Below, piece by piece: positions 1-16,273 of a stretch of 21,248 bases of DNA. The number at the start of each line of letters is the position of its first letter. The first letter of the stretch is position 1. The notes under the pieces were generated by a model. It was not told the DNA's origin and did not search any database. It saw only the letters and a program-made list of their open reading frames with translations. This DNA comes from a virus. The position numbers were made by a program, and so were the translations under genes. The stretch covers positions 1 to 21,248 of the IMG/VR virus record IMGVR_UViG_3300005613_000475. One strand, given 5' to 3'.

Positions 1-3000
1 GGCGAAGCCCTCGGCTACGGCGCTGGTGTGGGTGGCCTCATTCAAGCCCTCACTGATTTGGCTCTCGGTCGCCGTGCCAAGAAAGCCGCTGCCGCTGAAG
101 AAGAAGCACGGAAGGCTGAAGAAGCCGCCGCTGCCGCCGCTCCGGTACTTCCAGAAGGCGAAGGCGCTCAAGGTGAGTTGTTCCCACAAGAACTCGCTGA
201 GGCTGAAGAAGCTGAACTCGGCTTTGTAGGGCCACGTGCTGAAGCGGCACCAGAAGCCGCACCTGCCGAAGAGGAAGCCCCTGTCCAACCAGATATGATC
301 GACATGGCCGAGGAGCAGCAGCTTGAAGAGTTGTTTGCAGAAGACCGCCGCCGTGCCGATGAAGAAGAGACCCGCCAGATCGAAGATATGCTGGCAGCCG
401 ACGAAGCTGAAGCCACAGCGGCAGAAGCAGAGCGTCAGCGCATGCAGATGGAATCCGACATTGCCGAATTGACCGGTCGTCGTGAAACTGAGCAAGCGAA
501 AGCCAGCCAACAGCAACGTCTGGACATTTTGCTGCCCATCATTGATAACGTAGAAATCACCAATATCCCACGCAAATTCACCCAAGAGTTGAAGAAGCAG
601 GGGCTGCGTGAGACCGACATTAACGAAGATGAAAAGCGACTGATTAACCGCGCCTACGACATTCGTAAGGCAGAAGAAGTCGACACTACGTTGCCTGCGG
701 CTCCAGATGAGACTCCAGAAGGTTTAGTGCCTGAGAAGGCAACCACTCGTGAACCTGAACAGATGGGTTTCCCCGGTATGGGGCAGAAGCGCCTTCTGGA
801 GCGTGGCATTCTTGCCGAGCGTCAGGCACCGACCCCAGAGGCACCACAAACACTGGATGATACGTGGTTCGATTCGTTCGGTATCAAGAAGCAGGCTCCG
901 ATTCGTAAGAGACTGCAGGGTAAGACGTTTGACGATAACCGGGTAGAGATCCGTGGGGAGCTGATGGAATACGCAGCGAACCCAAACATCGCACCAGATG
1001 TCAGTCAGCGGATTCGCGATTACGCCAATTCTCCGTTATTTATGGAGCAGGCCGAAATGTTCGGCCCCCGTGGAGGGATTACAAAAGATGCTGCACGTCC
1101 ACGAACTAGACGCGAACCAACTGGAGTTAGCCCTGAAGGTGGTGTCGGACCTGTTGACGCAGGACGTACCCGTGGTGGTGCCGGACGAGTTGGAGCACCT
1201 GAACGAGCTGGACTGGGAGCTGCTGGAGGGGCTGCTGCACAGCCTGCAGGCAGAGAAGGAAGAAAGCCTGCTGCACTAGATGCGTTTACCGAACAAGCAA
1301 TTAAAAACGCGGAATCTGGTTCACGGGTCAAGTCCCGTGAAGTTGTCGTCGAGATGTCGATTGATGACTATCTAAACCTTGCTGCTCCGGGTACTGAGAA
1401 GGCAAAAACTAAAGGGTTAAAAGACGTAGATCAGTTCGATCAAATTCCACACTTGTCTACGGATGGTGAACAGGTCACCGGCCATGAAGGTCGTCATCGT
1501 GCCCGTCGGATGAAAGAACTCGGCTACACAACAATGCCGGTACGCATCATCGACAAGAATGTACGTTGGGGTGAAAACCCAAATACTCGTTTTGGCACGC
1601 TAAAAGCGGAAGAAGGAGATTTCTCTATTCCGCACCCCGTAAAGAGAGGGGACTATGGAACTTATTGGGATAGGGCCGTACGTGAAGAACCTAAAGCAGA
1701 AGTTAAGGAAGCTAAGCCTAAAACCGTTCGAGCTAAGCGCAAAGCTGCTGCGAAACCTGCTCCGCATAGGAAAAAGCGTGCTGCTGCAGTCGCTGCTAAG
1801 CCTGCTGGTCGAGTGGCTGAACAACCTGTTGAAAAGCCTACTCGTGCTAAGCCTAAAGTTACCCCTACCGAAAAAGCTGAAAAACCGGCTACTACTAGAA
1901 CTGCTGAAAAGGTAACACCTAAGAAAGCTGAGCCGAAAGTTAAGAAGGTCAAGGACACGCCGGATCAGGTACTCGAAGAAGTCGTATCGGATGAGGATCG
2001 TTTCGCTCAGGGTTGGGTGAAGAGCACCGATGCTAAGGGCAACGTGAAATGGGAACCACCCAAGAAGTCCACCACGACCAAGAAAGCTAAGGCTGCACCG
2101 AAAGAGCCGACCAAGGAAGAAGACGGTAACGCTGCGTGGCAAGAACTTGCTACCCCGCCGCTCAAGAAGTTCCATCAGGGCATTGCCCACATGTACGTGA
2201 TGCACGCCCCGCGTGAGATCAGCACGAAAGAAGATGCGAATAAGGTGCAGGCGCTGCTGAGAGGCAACCCGAAGACTATGAAAGCCGCCGATCGTGCGGT
2301 CTACAACTACTTCCTGAAGATGCCTCGGCAGGTAGACAACCTGATAAACATCGCGTTCGACTACGTATATAACACCCCGCAGTTCCGCCGTACCACAGAG
2401 ACGCTCGAAGAGGCCAAGTTCTTTGAGGGCATGAACGGTAAAAATGCTAAGGTGGCTTACGAATGGGTTAAGGAAAACCTAAGCCCTGAAGCGAATCGCG
2501 CACTGGACAAGTTTATACGTGCTTACGAAATTCAGCAGCGCCAGACCCGTGAAGAGGTACTGAACGCCATCCTGCTCGATAACGAAGCAATGTCCATCGA
2601 CGAGACGGTGCAGGATTATCTGGACGCTACGAATAAGGAACAGACCCTCAAGCTGCGTGCAGGTGAGATTGTCGAGATGGCGATGCCTCCGCACCCAGCC
2701 ATTGCTGCTCAGTTGGCAAACGGCGATCTACGCAAGGCGCTCGCTGGAATCGGCATTATGAACCCGAACACTGTGTTCGGTAGAGCCGCTACCAAGCTGG
2801 TCAACGCAGTCGAGAAGACTAAGGTAGAAGTTGTAGACGATTTGGTCGACGAAGCAGGTGAGCGCGTTGCGGGTCTGTACGATCCAAAAACTGACACTAT
2901 CCAGCTAGATTCTAGGCTGGGCATCAATACTCACACGATCCTCCACGAAGCGACCCATGCCGCAACTTCCCACGTATTGGCGAAGCCGGGGCATCCTGCT

Positions 3001-6000
3001 ACTAGGCAGTTGAAGCAACTCTACGAAGATGTGAAGGACTCGCTCGACACCGCGTACGGCGCACAGTCCCTTGATGAGTTTGTAGCAGAAGCGTTCTCTA
3101 ACCCAGAATTCCAAGCCAAGCTGCAGGCCATCAATCCGAAGGGTGAGCCGATTACAGCGTGGACCCGATTTACTCATGCTGTCGGCAACATGTTGCGTCG
3201 CCTGATTGGTATGGAGACTCGTGGACTGAAAACTGCATTAGACAAAGCTGATGTGACCATCACCTCGATTCTGTCTCCGGCACCGGATACCCGCAACGCA
3301 GGTCAGTTGTACGCCGCCTCGATGCTGGGTAAAGGTAAAGAAGTTCTCAACACTATCGGCCAACGCTACCAGAAGCTCGACCCACTGACGCAGGGTAAGA
3401 TTGACTCATTCCATGAGTTCTTCGCTCGCAAGATTCCGGGAACCGTGAAGAATGTAGTCCGTATGTCCCTACCGCTGAATGCCTTGGTGGACATCGCTCA
3501 GAAGTACATTCCGATGGCCCCTCGCGTCGATGCAGTGGTGCAGGAAAAGATGGGTTCCGAGAACCGTCGTAACCAGAAAATCGAGCCAATCATTCGCCGC
3601 GTAGAAGAGTGGTACAAGAAGCATCCTGACAAGTTAGACACACTGAATGAAGTGATCTACGCCAGTACACTGGATCAGGTAGACCCGTCAAAGCCACGCA
3701 ATTCCTACGCCGATAATGACCAGAAACTAGAAGTCTGGGACAAGCTGCAGAAGGACTGGAAGGCACTAGGCCCAGAAGGTCAGAGTGTCTATAAGCAGAT
3801 GCGGGATACGTACAAGAAGCTGTACGAAGAAATCGGCACCGTGCTTGAAGCCCGCCTAGCCGAAGGCGTAGAAAACGCTGATGTAGCTAAGAAGGTCAAG
3901 AAGGATATTTGGAACCGAATCTTTGATAACGGTGCAATCGAGCCGTACTTCCCACTGACACGTTCTGGTAAATACTGGCTGTCCTACAACGCATTTGATC
4001 CCCGTACTAATACTACGGAAATGTTTGTTGAAGCGTTCGAGACCGACCGTGCCCGTGACCGTGCGATTGCAGAGTTGAAGGCAGCAAAAGATGCAAAGGC
4101 TACCGACTTCCAGAAGTTTGCGAACCTCTCGCAAGTAAATTACAAGCGGGCACCGTCGACTTCGTTTATGAATACCGTGCTGAAAACACTGGATGTAAAC
4201 AAGGTCGATCCGAAAGTAAAAGAAGAAGTGATGACCTTCTTCATCAACATGCTGCCTGAAACCTCGTTCGCCCAAGGCTTCCGCCATCGTAAAGGCACCG
4301 CAGGTTTCAAACGTGACGCAGTGGGGGCGCTCCGCACTAAGTCTTACAATCTGTCCCGCCAGCTCGCGAATATCGAATATGGTGCGAAACTGGAAAACCT
4401 ACGCTCTCAGATCGACGAACACGTCAGGGAGCAGGGTAACGAAGAAACCACCGTGGGTTGGGCGGATGAACTGAATAAGCGCATCGACTTTGCCATCAAC
4501 CCGCATGTACCGATGTGGTCTAAGTTGGCTACGTCCTTCGGCTTTACCATGACGCTGGGCTTTAACGTGTCGTCGGCGATGGTCAACTTGACTCAGATCC
4601 CGCTGGTAGTGATGCCATATCTAGGTGGTAAATACGGATACGGTGTGACAACTAAAGCACTCGGCGCAGCGACTCGGGTGTTCACAAACAGTGGATTCGA
4701 CCGCGAAGTCGAGATGCTGGTGCCGACCGATTCGGGAGATGTGAAGCGAAAAGTCCGTGCCTTCCCGTCGTTGGACAACTATGACTTCGATGCTACGTCC
4801 ACCCCACCAGAAATTCGCCGCCTGAAAATGCTGTCCGAGGTTGCACTGGAACGTGGGCAGTTGAACCGCTCACTGACCTACGACATCTTGGATGTGGACG
4901 ACAGTGCTACTTTATTGACTAAAGTGAACGCGGCTTCTGGCTTCGTATTCCACCACGGTGAACGTATGAACCGTCAGGTGGCTATGGTCGCAACATATAA
5001 CCTCGAACTGGACGCGATGAAGAAAAAGGGTCGCAACATCGACGAGGCCGCCATGCGGGAAGCTGCGGAATACGCTGTTTACGTAACTGAACTGACCAAC
5101 GGCGGCACTGTAGCTGCTGCGGCACCACGTATCGCTCAGGGACCGCTGGGTAAAGTCTTGTTCATGTTCAAACGCTACGGCGTGTCCATGTACTACATGC
5201 TGTTTAAGACTGCTCGCGAAGCGTTGAAAGACGCCGATCCTGAAGTTCGTAAGATAGCGAAGCGCCAAATCGCGGGGATTTACGCTTCATCCGCACTCTT
5301 GGCAGGGGTGCAGGGTGTTCCGCTTTACGGTATTGCAGCGATGGCATACAACCTAATCCTCGCAGATGACGATGACGACGATTTTGATACTGCGGCACGT
5401 AAGTGGATGGGTGAAGTTCCGTACAGCGGGGCAGTAAACAACCTGCTCGGCGTGGAAGTTGCCTCCCGTGTCGGCCTCAGTGACCTCGTTTTCCGTGATA
5501 ACAAAGTACGAGATCAGCAAAGCGTAATGTTGTCACTCATGGAGACAATGGGTGGTCCGGTTCTGGGTGTAACCAGCCGCATGGAGCGTGGTTTATCCCT
5601 GATTAGTGAAGGTAATATTGACCGTGGTATCGAGCAGATGCTCCCCTCCGCGATCGGGAACGCTCTGAAGTCCGTTCGGTTCGGCACCGAAGGCGCTCGT
5701 ACATTACGTGGTGACCCGATAACAGGTGAACTTGGTCCGTGGAACACTTTCGCGCAGTTCTTTGGTTTCGCTCCAGCGGAATACACCCGCCAGCTTGAGA
5801 TCAACAGCAACACGAAGAAGATAGAGCGTAATATCCTACAGAAACGGACTAAGCTCCTGAGAAACTATTACATCGCAATGCGTAATGGCGATAGTAAGGA
5901 AGCCGCGGACATCATGCGTGAAATCGCCAGATTTAGTCGTGAGCATCCGGGTGTTGCGATTTCTGCGGATACGGTCAATCGGTCGATTCGTCGCCACTTG

Positions 6001-6093
6001 CAGACCAGTGCGGGTATGTACCACGGCATCACGATCAACAAGAGCCTACGCCCTGAGTTGATGCAGAACATCAGTGAGTACAACGGCGACTGA
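1..6093 (+). CDS. Giant polyvalent virion-type protein with metallopeptidase domain (5' end cut by window edge)
   Basis: The reading frame is open from base 1, so the N-terminus lies outside the window; residue numbers here count from the GTG at 28. About 2020 residues are visible. Residues ~15-170 are Ala/Glu-rich and probably coiled coil. A ParB-like stretch carries a GRHR motif (488-491). Residues ~345-415 are Gly/Arg/Ala/Pro-rich, and ~552-648 are Lys/Ala/Pro-rich like a histone tail. A zinc metallopeptidase motif HEATH lies at 973-977, with a downstream acidic helix (E1017/E1021) as likely third ligand; this resembles the MPTase-PolyVal domain of phage polyvalent proteins. The C-terminal ~900 residues are helical, with hydrophobic stretches near 1506-1535 and 1746-1779, a GPLGKVLFMFKRYG motif near 1706 and an Asp run at 1780-1785, recalling the large polyvalent-associated (LPD38-type) region. 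It is probably packaged in the virion and ejected with the DNA; this role is inferred. It is the last late gene before the convergent early genes. Confidence 0.85.
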   Translation, partial: GEALGYGAGVGGLIQALTDLALGRRAKKAAAAEEEARKAEEAAAAAAPVLPEGEGAQGELFPQELAEAEEAELGFVGPRAEAAPEAAPAEEEAPVQPDMIDMAEEQQLEELFAEDRRRADEEETRQIEDMLAADEAEATAAEAERQRMQMESDIAELTGRRETEQAKASQQQRLDILLPIIDNVEITNIPRKFTQELKKQGLRETDINEDEKRLINRAYDIRKAEEVDTTLPAAPDETPEGLVPEKATTREPEQMGFPGMGQKRLLERGILAERQAPTPEAPQTLDDTWFDSFGIKKQAPIRKRLQGKTFDDNRVEIRGELMEYAANPNIAPDVSQRIRDYANSPLFMEQAEMFGPRGGITKDAARPRTRREPTGVSPEGGVGPVDAGRTRGGAGRVGAPERAGLGAAGGAAAQPAGREGRKPAALDAFTEQAIKNAESGSRVKSREVVVEMSIDDYLNLAAPGTEKAKTKGLKDVDQFDQIPHLSTDGEQVTGHEGRHRARRMKELGYTTMPVRIIDKNVRWGENPNTRFGTLKAEEGDFSIPHPVKRGDYGTYWDRAVREEPKAEVKEAKPKTVRAKRKAAAKPAPHRKKRAAAVAAKPAGRVAEQPVEKPTRAKPKVTPTEKAEKPATTRTAEKVTPKKAEPKVKKVKDTPDQVLEEVVSDEDRFAQGWVKSTDAKGNVKWEPPKKSTTTKKAKAAPKEPTKEEDGNAAWQELATPPLKKFHQGIAHMYVMHAPREISTKEDANKVQALLRGNPKTMKAADRAVYNYFLKMPRQVDNLINIAFDYVYNTPQFRRTTETLEEAKFFEGMNGKNAKVAYEWVKENLSPEANRALDKFIRAYEIQQRQTREEVLNAILLDNEAMSIDETVQDYLDATNKEQTLKLRAGEIVEMAMPPHPAIAAQLANGDLRKALAGIGIMNPNTVFGRAATKLVNAVEKTKVEVVDDLVDEAGERVAGLYDPKTDTIQLDSRLGINTHTILHEATHAATSHVLAKPGHPATRQLKQLYEDVKDSLDTAYGAQSLDEFVAEAFSNPEFQAKLQAINPKGEPITAWTRFTHAVGNMLRRLIGMETRGLKTALDKADVTITSILSPAPDTRNAGQLYAASMLGKGKEVLNTIGQRYQKLDPLTQGKIDSFHEFFARKIPGTVKNVVRMSLPLNALVDIAQKYIPMAPRVDAVVQEKMGSENRRNQKIEPIIRRVEEWYKKHPDKLDTLNEVIYASTLDQVDPSKPRNSYADNDQKLEVWDKLQKDWKALGPEGQSVYKQMRDTYKKLYEEIGTVLEARLAEGVENADVAKKVKKDIWNRIFDNGAIEPYFPLTRSGKYWLSYNAFDPRTNTTEMFVEAFETDRARDRAIAELKAAKDAKATDFQKFANLSQVNYKRAPSTSFMNTVLKTLDVNKVDPKVKEEVMTFFINMLPETSFAQGFRHRKGTAGFKRDAVGALRTKSYNLSRQLANIEYGAKLENLRSQIDEHVREQGNEETTVGWADELNKRIDFAINPHVPMWSKLATSFGFTMTLGFNVSSAMVNLTQIPLVVMPYLGGKYGYGVTTKALGAATRVFTNSGFDREVEMLVPTDSGDVKRKVRAFPSLDNYDFDATSTPPEIRRLKMLSEVALERGQLNRSLTYDILDVDDSATLLTKVNAASGFVFHHGERMNRQVAMVATYNLELDAMKKKGRNIDEAAMREAAEYAVYVTELTNGGTVAAAAPRIAQGPLGKVLFMFKRYGVSMYYMLFKTAREALKDADPEVRKIAKRQIAGIYASSALLAGVQGVPLYGIAAMAYNLILADDDDDDFDTAARKWMGEVPYSGAVNNLLGVEVASRVGLSDLVFRDNKVRDQQSVMLSLMETMGGPVLGVTSRMERGLSLISEGNIDRGIEQMLPSAIGNALKSVRFGTEGARTLRGDPITGELGPWNTFAQFFGFAPAEYTRQLEINSNTKKIERNILQKRTKLLRNYYIAMRNGDSKEAADIMREIARFSREHPGVAISADTVNRSIRRHLQTSAGMYHGITINKSLRPELMQNISEYNGD
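1088..1279 (+). CDS. Small protein embedded in +1 frame inside the giant late gene
   Basis: A 63-codon ORF lies wholly within the giant gene, shifted by one base. ATG at 1088 follows a GGAGGG (1072-1077) with about 10 nt spacing, slightly long for a ribosome site. By hand count 55 of 63 codons end in G or C (CTG, GAG, GTG, GAC), and the segment is about 61% GC. The product is acidic and helical, with heptad-like leucines, and ends in EKEESLLH; it reads like an ordinary small phage protein. The main frame over the same bases is low-complexity Gly/Arg/Ala/Pro, as expected when another frame is under selection. I cannot assign a function. It could be an overprinted gene, or a once separate small gene absorbed when the giant ORF expanded. 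The alternative is a compositional artefact. Confidence 0.5.
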   Translation: MLHVHELDANQLELALKVVSDLLTQDVPVVVPDELEHLNELDWELLEGLLHSLQAEKEESLLH

Positions 6094-12940: not shown

Positions 12941-13607
12941 ATCCGCTTCTCCCGTTGTGGGGACACTCCAGCACAACACAGTGGGCCTTACACAACCCCG
13001 ATGTGCGGGGATTCCAGACGTCGTTTTCGTACGCAGTCTTCATGCGATTGTAATCGGTCAGCCACTTCTCCCATAGTCTCGGCTCGTCCTCTTTACTGTA
13101 TTCGGCCTTGACAAAATCCTGACTCACCACGAACACCAGTGCGGCCTTGACGTGGGTCACCTGCGGGAAGTGCTTGAATGTGGCAAGTGCCATCAACTCC
13201 AACTGCCCCCGGTCAGCGTACTTGGCCGACTTCCCCGTCTTGTAGTCCAGCACCTTGGCCTTGTCTCCGTTCAGGATCATCAGGTCAGCAATCCCTCGCC
13301 ACCAAACATCTTTGTCCTTGAACCCGCACGGTTCCAGATTCTCGGTCAGCCCCATCTCGTACTCACACAGCTTCTCCCCCTCCATCGCATTAAGTTTCTC
13401 TAATGCGGATTGGGCGAACTTGAACTGTGGTGGGATCGGCGTGCCATCCCGCACGTACTCCTCGGCGGCTTTGTGGAACGCTGTCCCGTACAGCATCGCC
13501 TCGGTTTCTTTCTCCTTGTAATCCCGTGCCACCTTGAGGTGGTAGAACTTCTTCGGGCACTGCTCGAACGTCTTGATACTTGAGAAAGACCACGCAGGGA
13601 TTTTCAT
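12930..13607 (-). CDS. Cas4/RecB-like PD-(D/E)XK exonuclease with iron-sulfur cysteines
   Basis: A 225-residue nuclease of the PDDEXK superfamily. Nuclease motifs in order: GTAFHKAAE (H45), GIADLM (D108), LDYKTGK (D121, K123), and QLELMALATF with Q135. C17 (in CPKKFYH) plus a C-terminal trio C206, C210 and C215 match the four-cysteine iron-sulfur cluster of Cas4/AddB-type exonucleases. It is expected to degrade DNA ends or process single strands during replication and recombination. It is not evidence for CRISPR: no Cas1, Cas2 or array is visible. Its ATG overlaps the polymerase stop (ATGA), implying coupled translation with the polymerase. Confidence 0.9.
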   Translation of the reverse strand: MKIPAWSFSSIKTFEQCPKKFYHLKVARDYKEKETEAMLYGTAFHKAAEEYVRDGTPIPPQFKFAQSALEKLNAMEGEKLCEYEMGLTENLEPCGFKDKDVWWRGIADLMILNGDKAKVLDYKTGKSAKYADRGQLELMALATFKHFPQVTHVKAALVFVVSQDFVKAEYSKEDEPRLWEKWLTDYNRMKTAYENDVWNPRTSGLCKAHCVVLECPHNGRSGYAL

Positions 13608-16273
13608 TCACAATCTCCGTAGCTATTACCGACACCGGATTCACAGTTTACAGGTAATCCGTATGCCCAGTCAGGAACCCAACGCATGCACTCTTCGATG
13701 TAGGCACGGGCTTCGTCGACATCGGCCTCGCGTACACAACACGTGATGGCATCATGCACGGTCAGTACAACCCGATACTTCTTCGCGATCTTGAGCATCT
13801 GCTCACCGATAATGCACCGTGCGACTGCTTGGCACACATTTTCAATCACCTTCCCGCCGTAGATCCGTGTCCGTCCTCTACGAGTTTTGTAGCTGTACTC
13901 ATACCCACGCTCACCTGCTTCGGCGCTGAGGTCGTCATAGCGCATCAAGAGACCGGAGGGTAGGCGGATTGCTGATTCACTCGGCACAACTTCAAGAACC
14001 CCGGCTCGACCGAAGTATGTAGCGTCACCCCGTGCTAAGTTTTCAAGCATGAACTGCGCCTGCTTCCATAGCCCAGTGATCTCATTGTTTGTTCTACGGT
14101 AGATGTCAATAACACGGCGGGCCTCGTCTAAATCCATATCAAACCCAAACGTCTTTAACTGTGCTTGGAACTTGATCGCCCCCATACCGTATCCACAGTT
14201 ATGTGCTATCACCGGACCGGATTCGGTTAAGATCGTGAAGCGATTCCTCGGCCCTGCGTAAGCGATGTCGTAAGTCTGCAATAGTCTTTTCGAGGGTTTC
14301 GACCCTTCGCTTGTTCCGCATGTTTTCACTTCTGGTTGCGAACCGTATGTTGCCGGGTTCATACCCTTTATCATTGTCGATCCGATCCATTTCAAGTTTT
14401 GGATTGTCCCACCCATCCAATGTTTGCACAAATTTGAGAAACTTGGTCCTGTCGATTCGCCATTCTTCGTAGACATAGATACCCCTACCCCCGTAATCTG
14501 AGTATCTATTGGCGCTTGTGTTATGGCAGCGTGAGATAGCTGATGATAGCCTGTTAAGTAGCCTAGTCCTGTGTTTATCGTCTGGCATAGCTTTTGCGTA
14601 CTTCCAATAACGCTTTTGCCTGCCTGCCTCACGTGCGCATACTGGGCAACGGGTGGTTTTGAAGTTTTTGAAGTTGTGTTGGTCGACGGTGTACTCGGCA
14701 GTGCTGCAATCGCACGAGACAATGAGAGCTTTAACTCCACCCCGTGCGCCGCGTACATAGCCTGATACGGTAATTTTTCCTGACCGGTGTCCAATGCTTG
14801 GGATAGGGTGCACGCGTCTTGCACCACTGATCCTGTCTCCTTCCATTCGTTCCCGCACAATATCTTGTGGTCTGGTGTTAGCCAACTCCCGCAAAGACTC
14901 AATGTTTCTTTGGTGCCTTTCGGCACTAATCCTTGATGGCATACAAACTCCTCTCCATCCCACACGCGATCTGAAAGTGTGATCTGTTCTATAGGCTTCC
15001 ACCCAGAGTCACACAGTACCATTGTGCCAGCACCTATACAACCAAGGATAGTCGTCTTACCAACAAAGCGTTGATCCTTGGTAACCTCGTCAACAGGCAC
15101 ACCATAGATGTTAGACGCCATCTTCTTGTACACATCTTTACCTTGGGTGAACGCTTCGACCAGATCGTCCTGCCCTGCCAGCCATGCAAGTACACGGGCT
15201 TCGATCTGCGCAGAGTCCGCGTCGATTACTTTGAATCCTTTGGGTGCGATGATCGACTGCTTGAGTTTCTTTGCGTTCGGCCCACGGCTCGGCAAATTCT
15301 GCATGTTGATCTTGTCGTCACCACCCCAACGGCCAGTGTGTGCTGCGTAATAACGTACAGGTACAGGCAGCGGCCCACGCTTCGCGATGTCGATAAACCG
15401 TTGCGTGCGTGTTTCTTCCAGTGTGGACTTCGTACCGAGACGCGCTGCTACTAATGACTGCACGCGGTCATCTTCGTGGTCAGCCAGTGCCTTGAAGTCC
15501 TCATCACTCTTGGCAAGTGCCAGAGTTTCTTTACCGGTGGTAGGGCTGATCTTCATCGGTGGCTCAACACCCAACTCTTTCAGTAACTCAGCAAATTTCG
15601 GGTTGGACATCAGATCGTCTTTAGATACCCCCGCATCTTCCAGCAGCATATCTTTACGATCTTTAACTGCCTGCAAGTGTGCTTCCAGCAGCGGCAGATC
15701 CAACTCCATGATGGGGTCAATGAACATGCGCAGGGTCACATCAATCAGCTTCATCTCCTGCTTCGGGAAGTTCTTGACCATCGTCTTAAACAACTTATAC
15801 GTCAACTCCACATCGTTGACGCAGTAGTCACCATACCTGCTCAGTTCTTCTTCGCTGAAATCGGCACGGCGTTTACCCAGTGCGTTGAGTACCTCAGTAC
15901 CCTTCTGTCCAAGACCATACCGTTCGGTCAGTGCCTTGAGAGATCCGCCAACTTCGACACCATGAATAGCACGGCCCATACAGAGAGTATCAGCCCAAAC
16001 GCGAGGGTGAACATCAAACAGCCAGCTAAGTATGGCCCCGTCGAACATGGTGTTGTGCGCCAATGCCATTGAATCGGCCCAGTCGAAGGTATGCAGCCAC
16101 TTCTTGATCTGTTCATGCGTACCACTGGCCCACTCCGTCGCTCCGTTGTTTACCTTTATCGCAACGCCGATAACTTCAAAATCATCAGAGCGTATGTATT
16201 CCTCTGTGGTCATCTTCGACAACGAAAACTCTTTCGAGTAAAACGTCTCGAAGTCTATTGTTATTAAGTTCAT
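13604..16273 (-). CDS. Family A DNA polymerase with 3'-5' exonuclease, interrupted by an intein
   Basis: An 889-residue precursor; removing the intein (residues 412-692) leaves 608 residues, normal for a phage Pol I-type enzyme. The proofreading exonuclease shows D7/E9 (TIDFET), N74/D78 (AHNTMFD) and Y150/D154. Polymerase motif A is DSAQIEAR with D353. Motif B is split by the intein: R402...K406...LG, then CGYG after splicing. Motif C is TVHDA with H840/D841; the usual HDE glutamate is alanine. It is the replicative polymerase of the phage. ATG at 16273 has AAGGA about 8 nt upstream and overlaps the preceding small gene; the stop overlaps the Cas4-like gene. Activity should require splicing, since the intein sits inside the nucleotide-binding O-helix. 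Confidence 0.95.
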   Translation of the reverse strand: MNLITIDFETFYSKEFSLSKMTTEEYIRSDDFEVIGVAIKVNNGATEWASGTHEQIKKWLHTFDWADSMALAHNTMFDGAILSWLFDVHPRVWADTLCMGRAIHGVEVGGSLKALTERYGLGQKGTEVLNALGKRRADFSEEELSRYGDYCVNDVELTYKLFKTMVKNFPKQEMKLIDVTLRMFIDPIMELDLPLLEAHLQAVKDRKDMLLEDAGVSKDDLMSNPKFAELLKELGVEPPMKISPTTGKETLALAKSDEDFKALADHEDDRVQSLVAARLGTKSTLEETRTQRFIDIAKRGPLPVPVRYYAAHTGRWGGDDKINMQNLPSRGPNAKKLKQSIIAPKGFKVIDADSAQIEARVLAWLAGQDDLVEAFTQGKDVYKKMASNIYGVPVDEVTKDQRFVGKTTILGCIGAGTMVLCDSGWKPIEQITLSDRVWDGEEFVCHQGLVPKGTKETLSLCGSWLTPDHKILCGNEWKETGSVVQDACTLSQALDTGQEKLPYQAMYAAHGVELKLSLSRAIAALPSTPSTNTTSKTSKPPVAQYAHVRQAGKSVIGSTQKLCQTINTGLGYLTGYHQLSHAAITQAPIDTQITGVGVSMSTKNGESTGPSFSNLCKHWMGGTIQNLKWIGSTMIKGMNPATYGSQPEVKTCGTSEGSKPSKRLLQTYDIAYAGPRNRFTILTESGPVIAHNCGYGMGAIKFQAQLKTFGFDMDLDEARRVIDIYRRTNNEITGLWKQAQFMLENLARGDATYFGRAGVLEVVPSESAIRLPSGLLMRYDDLSAEAGERGYEYSYKTRRGRTRIYGGKVIENVCQAVARCIIGEQMLKIAKKYRVVLTVHDAITCCVREADVDEARAYIEECMRWVPDWAYGLPVNCESGVGNSYGDCE
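14198..15040 (-). mobile_element. Intein (281 residues) in DNA polymerase motif B
   Basis: It begins at C412 (block A: CIGAGTMVLCDSGWKPIEQI) and ends at H691-N692 followed by C693 of the C-extein. Block B is LTPDH with T466 and H469. Block F is TYDIAYAGPRNRFTIL, and block G is VIAHN|C. All residues for canonical class 1 splicing are present. The middle (~500-660) is Ser/Thr-rich with no LAGLIDADG or other endonuclease motif in this frame. Instead, an HNH endonuclease is encoded out of frame over the same DNA. The insertion point, between LG and CGYG of motif B, is the kind of invariant active-site location inteins favour. Confidence 0.95.
14199..14942 (-). CDS. HNH homing endonuclease nested out of frame inside the intein
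   Basis: A 247-codon ORF, offset by one base from the polymerase frame and entirely within intein DNA. ATG at 14942 follows GGAGAGGAGTTTGT, a very strong ribosome site; an upstream GTG at 15002 has none and is rejected. The TAA stop (14199-14201) overlaps the intein's final His-Asn codons. The product has a Cys pair set C77, C79, C99, C102 (zinc-ribbon-like). An HNH domain follows: a RLSSAISRCHN helix, YGGRGI (150-155), and DRIDNDKGYEPGNIRF (186-201) then N-x-R-N-K-R, the widespread phage HNH signature. Residues ~213-240 are a charged coiled coil. It probably cuts intein-less polymerase genes to promote intein homing; the target is inferred from location. Confidence 0.9.
   Translation of the reverse strand: MPSRISAERHQRNIESLRELANTRPQDIVRERMEGDRISGARRVHPIPSIGHRSGKITVSGYVRGARGGVKALIVSCDCSTAEYTVDQHNFKNFKTTRCPVCAREAGRQKRYWKYAKAMPDDKHRTRLLNRLSSAISRCHNTSANRYSDYGGRGIYVYEEWRIDRTKFLKFVQTLDGWDNPKLEMDRIDNDKGYEPGNIRFATRSENMRNKRRVETLEKTIADLRHRLRRAEESLHDLNRIRSGDST

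Follow-up and report, generated by a model that had tools for sequence, protein, structure and literature searches.

In this study, we report a probable overprinted gene of 63 codons, carried in the +1 frame of the gene for a giant DarB-like polyvalent protein in a phage sequence of 21,248 nucleotides (IMG/VR record IMGVR_UViG_3300005613_000475, positions 1 to 21,248), the whole of which is called the window below. A functional overprinted gene is strongly supported, as firmly as comparative sequence allows, and the probability that the open reading frame (ORF) is a genuine overprinted gene with internal initiation was put at roughly 88%, a figure that covers the gene itself and the way it is expressed, and not its function. 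The new elements are the protein family, its host gene, its never being found free-standing, and a clear reversal of constraint between the two frames; an earlier report of the family was not found in the open-access literature.

Table 1. Predicted features of the embedded gene and its giant host gene in the window
Feature	Position	Strand	Basis or remark
Embedded gene, 63 codons + stop	1088..1279	+	+1 frame of the giant gene; predicted acidic helical-hairpin protein, new family
Shine-Dalgarno-like GGAGGG for the embedded gene	1072..1077	+	Sequence; motif also enriched across representatives
Giant DarB-like polyvalent protein gene	1..6093	+	PHROG 10089, E 5e-80; truncated 5' at the window edge
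LPD39 (large polyvalent protein associated domain 39) of the giant protein	3466..3933	+	Pfam PF18858, E 8.5e-17, residues 1156-1311
C-terminal part shared with DarB-like antirestriction and cultured-phage PLxRFG proteins	3874..6069	+	PHROG 10089, residues 1292-2023
Giant segment overlapping the small gene, Gly/Arg/Ala/Pro linker with drifting residues	1087..1281	+	GC3, omega

The reading-frame list and translations agreed with the first-pass annotation as to the embedded ORF, which runs from an ATG at 1088 to a stop codon at 1277-1279 within the frame-1 ORF of the giant gene and whose product ends in EKEESLLH. A recount gave G or C in the third position of 55 of the 63 codons, as first reported, with CTG used 13 times and GAG seven times. 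The Shine-Dalgarno-like hexamer upstream of the ATG was also confirmed; the 11 nt between GGAGG and the ATG are a long but workable spacing, atypical for the family. Over the embedded ORF the giant frame reads DAARPRTRREPTGVSPEGGVGPVDAGRTRGGAGRVGAPERAGLGAAGGAAAQPAGREGRKPAALD, the Gly/Arg/Ala/Pro linker that had been described. The +1 frame of the window is already open from position 965, with another ATG at 998, and 41 open +1 codons precede the embedded start. Homologues nonetheless support 1088 as the probable true start of the gene, and in one of them (L009) an in-frame stop lies 10 codons upstream of the start that matches it.

The length of the embedded ORF alone is not beyond chance. When the giant protein was held fixed and its codons were redrawn synonymously, a +1 ORF of at least 63 codons beginning with ATG occurred somewhere in 81% of the recodings, and the overlap itself remained open in 24%. 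The first of these figures would suit a chance ORF, open because the linker is poor in +1 stops and conserved as a by-product of the giant, and so would the long low-complexity +1 ORFs seen in the linkers of two other giants (L074 and L076). The high GC3 of the +1 frame is weak evidence, because it equals the giant's own first-codon-position GC, which is 0.875 in the overlap and 0.62 gene-wide; 3.4% of the 63-codon stretches of the giant reach the overlap's value. A stronger single-sequence sign is the giant's own GC3, which drops to 0.17-0.18 in the overlap, the lowest of any 63-codon stretch in a gene whose mean is 0.55 (SD 0.11).

When viral contigs were first scanned with the 63-residue product, three loci were recovered (68% and 43% identity), and at each of them a homologous giant contained the ORF at the corresponding position, again in the +1 frame. 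With the conserved C-terminal part of the giant as query, 80 viral-contig loci were obtained. A six-protein profile, run in all six frames, matched nearly all of those that were long enough, that is, those spanning the region able to hold the embedded ORF, and the matches were always in the giant and always in the +1 frame. Two scans with small-protein alignments only returned 62 loci, of which 61 were embedded in the +1 frame and one was cut by a contig end; none was free-standing. The homologues gathered amounted to 68 distinct sequences, all in the +1 frame of giants wherever the context was complete, and formed 38 clusters below 65% identity with a mean inter-cluster pairwise identity of 0.38. 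The embedded gene was present in 51 of 53 full-length giants, the exceptions being L013 and L074. Missing homologues and a disrupted +1 frame in related giants had been named beforehand as the outcome that would speak against the gene; the opposite was seen. The claim of a gene within a gene is thus strongly supported by homologues that keep the same frame and place, and the omega and recoding tests agree with it.

For omega, each possible change was classed by its effect in both frames, and 23 disjoint pairs were used. In the overlap, omega was 0.39 for the small frame (95% 0.30-0.49) and 1.17 for the giant frame (0.97-1.42; 1.04-1.17 across estimates). Control regions upstream and downstream had an omega of 0.34-0.49 in the giant frame and of 0.70-0.85 in a +1 frame. 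Codon alignments showed that changes in the overlap fall mainly at giant position 1, where the +1 frame has its wobble base, and seldom at position 3, the opposite of the pattern elsewhere in the gene. In the pair L028/L062, changes at giant positions 1, 2 and 3 numbered 23, 6 and 5 in the overlap as against 641, 470 and 1189 outside it; the pair of the window and L009 was milder, with 15, 13 and 13 as against 220, 133 and 790.

In the recoding test, for which the profiles were built without each representative's relatives, 38 of 38 representatives scored above 300 of 300 giant-preserving recodings. The omega pairs are linked by deeper ancestry and codons count as independent in the recoding test, but the selection effect is far larger than corrections for either could remove. 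The recoding test and the dual-frame omega with its controls refute a chance ORF, which is left as extremely improbable: giant-preserving recodings never attained the real profile scores in the 38 lineages, and the giant frame drifts where the +1 frame is conserved. The embedded ORF lies entirely inside a coding ORF with which it is out of frame, and it is under purifying selection beyond the constraint of the host frame. Judged from these codon comparisons, the small protein is the constrained partner in the overlap, and the residues of the giant drift, carried along.

The start codon, ATG or GTG, is preceded in the family by a Shine-Dalgarno-like AAGGAG(G), mostly 5-6 nt away. Scored at a length of at least 5 nt, the motif was found in 82% of the 38 representatives and in 19% of the recodings, a contrast that is somewhat inflated because starts were chosen partly by Shine-Dalgarno; three of the 68 sequences had no clear Shine-Dalgarno. 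In 37 of the 68, the +1 frame is closed by a stop no more than 12 codons before the start, often by a TAA right before the AAGGAG, for example in TAA AAG GAG CCG ATT ATG. An initiation signal of its own therefore belongs to the gene, with the spacing in the window being long. From this enrichment and the upstream +1 stops, internal initiation is to be expected rather than frameshifting, and the small protein is very probably translated in that way. The Shine-Dalgarno site of the small gene would recruit ribosomes within the giant cistron, and an acidic protein of about 60 aa would be made separately from the giant. A programmed +1 frameshift on the giant, ending at 1279 and yielding a truncated giant with a small-protein tail, could give such a fusion in the window, where the +1 codons upstream of the start are open; it is nevertheless very unlikely in view of those upstream stops, often directly before the Shine-Dalgarno, and of the Shine-Dalgarno and start codon present in most lineages.

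The consensus of the family is M-x(4)-L-x(2)-L-S-x(2)-Q-x-E-x-A-F-x(2)-L in the N-terminal part, followed by a variable stretch, and P-P-x-E-L-x-H-L-x(3)-E-W-x(2)-L-x(2)-L-L-x(2)-L-x(2)-E-K-x(2)-S-x-L-H in the C-terminal part. A first helix leads through a P-x-EL-x-HL turn into a second one, in which a Trp is invariant, and His is usually the last residue. AlphaFold2 models of two distant members both consisted of two long helices (mean pLDDT 81 and 79), with a pTM of only about 0.58. The proteins are acidic on average, with a mean net charge of -4.6. No membrane segment was detected over the 38 representatives, in which the top 19-residue hydropathy was 1.22 and so below 1.6, and no lipobox or N-terminal signal followed by Cys was present in the 68 sequences. 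Scans of 46 members against Pfam and PHROGs gave just scattered weak matches (best E 0.008), the best hit of a PDB profile search with the small protein was not significant (E 0.9), and Foldseek searches with the hairpin, covering PDB and viral models, returned no significant match. The small protein belongs to no Pfam, PHROG or PDB family.

The host gene belongs to the DarB-like/LPD39 polyvalent proteins (PHROG 10089, PF18858; PMC5512222), both the C-terminal profile and an LPD domain having been found in it. Its C-terminal part is 24-27% identical to proteins of cultured phages by tblastn. In relatives, the giant gene is the last of a plus-strand operon, behind matches to virion structural and DNA-ejection families, and in relatives and the window alike it faces a replication operon on the minus strand. 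Polyvalent proteins are believed to enter the host with the injected DNA (PMC5512222). An embedded gene in DarB-like/LPD39 proteins is not described in that paper, from the text of which the word "overlapping" is absent. The overlap sits in a linker, often just past the giant's Q-x-E-M-F-G-P-x-G-G motif. Right after the embedded ORF, at about 1282-1670, the giant of the window has about 130 extra amino acids (VTGHEGRHRARRMKELGYTTMPVRII), a stretch that is ParB-like by eye, has no Pfam match and is absent from a relative (L003) that is 84% identical.

As to the origin of the gene, a relative of the small protein was not found in bacterial genome contigs (GTDB), a free-standing homologue was not found in 50,697 phage records searched by tblastn with five queries, and the small gene was never free-standing in about ninety viral contigs; the search for stand-alone homologues that had been proposed for the 63-residue product thus yielded none. 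The sole tblastn matches, gp55-like proteins of Dinoroseobacter phage (E 0.3), are read in the annotated frame, do not pass the profile (E 2.4) and were set aside as chance. The embedded gene was absent from the giants of five cultured relatives (Skulduggery, douglas 12A4, Mwe-JY07, Rollin and RHph_TM29), and a phage of the clade that has it was not found in the cultured phage collection. Since these distant giants do not have the ORF, either a giant that already existed gained it or those lines lost it. Their lack of the small gene also agrees with the insertion of a once free-standing gene into the giant, which then read through it, and so does the composition of the +1 frame by codon position, which is more gene-like in the overlap. 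The first-pass annotation had suggested such an acquired segment, partly from the choice of GAG and CTG codons. This origin is unlikely, however: every collection searched was without a free-standing relative, which leaves the suggestion unsupported, and the giant's own first codon positions account for both the GC3 and the preference for GAG and CTG. The simplest origin would be de novo overprinting of a linker that was already there, which is favoured because the distant giants lack the small gene and a free gene was not found.

The function of the small protein can be addressed in tentative terms. It may be expressed late and serve the giant, or an ejection protein encoded nearby, as a partner or assembly chaperone, a role favoured because it is always encoded in the giant gene, never elsewhere, and has no membrane segment; obligate co-encoding behind structural genes, together with a soluble helical hairpin, suggests a partner or chaperone. 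About as likely, the same gene could encode an accessory or host-directed factor that acts independently and simply happens to be encoded in the giant's linker. Overprinted viral genes often encode accessory proteins (PMC8227390) and polyvalent proteins are part of a conflict repertoire (PMC5512222), which would fit such a factor, but the small gene has never left the giant across 38 diverged lineages and the giant gene sits behind structural genes. A rather doubtful but more specific proposal is that the family was born by overprinting in the linker of an injected polyvalent protein, and was kept throughout the history of a large phage clade because it acts on its own host protein; the small protein would then be a co-translational chaperone, a packaging partner or a brake on the giant. 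If this were true, the giant's linker would evolve as a passenger of the smaller gene.

Full embedding is common among catalogued viral overlaps, 30% of which lie totally within another gene (PMC7017920). The classic embedded gene of phages is Rz1, in the +1 frame of Rz, the lambda-type embedded spanin (PMC6139136). The present case resembles it as a small gene contained wholly in the +1 frame of a longer one, conserved across phages and independently initiated, initiation being predicted here. Rz1, however, is an outer-membrane lipoprotein of the lysis cassette, whereas the small protein is encoded in a giant polyvalent gene and has neither a membrane segment nor a lipobox, on which grounds an Rz1-type o-spanin role was rejected. 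Spanin genes also occur overlapped or separated, whereas the small embedded gene was never found free. The ShiLan-type HNH genes in phage methylases (PMC11855218) are similar in that a second protein is encoded out of frame and the main frame stays open, but they are sporadic homing elements, whereas the embedded gene is nearly constant in full-length giants and shows no nuclease similarity.

Annotation usually skips short ORFs nested in long ones, and this family, found in nearly all full-length giants of a widespread uncultivated phage clade, is yet without a Pfam or PHROGs entry. The overlap makes a clean case for the study of overlapping genes because the roles are reversed, the small hidden gene being constrained and the large visible one drifting. 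Rescanning the linkers of giant phage proteins for hidden genes is suggested. Caution is needed in doing so, as open +1 frames in repeat-rich linkers are common without being genes; the repeat-rich linker of the L076 giant, for instance, holds a 104-codon +1 ORF of LLPLRQLLRQ-like repeats.

A second gene within a gene was observed on the minus strand of the window, where a 247-aa HNH endonuclease ORF (14199-14942; PHROG 374, E 2.5e-35) lies within the ORF at 13604-16273. It is out of frame with a family A DNA polymerase ORF, shares its strand and is contained in an intein-like insertion (CIGAGTMVLCDSGWKPI...GPVIAHNC) of the polymerase. The same HNH was found out of frame in the polymerase ORF of five viral contigs (L166-L170, 60-65% identity). 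It resembles the hidden HNH elements of the ShiLan type (PMC11855218), but differs in the intein-like splicing borders that seem to be present here.

Short Q-x-x-[LM]-F motifs (QGELF, QGDLF, QQEMF) recur in the linkers of 41 giants, 49 having been observed where shuffled linkers gave an expectation of 3.8. They may be akin to sliding-clamp-binding pentapeptides. An example in the window is QGELFP at 169-186, in the N-terminal linker of the giant.
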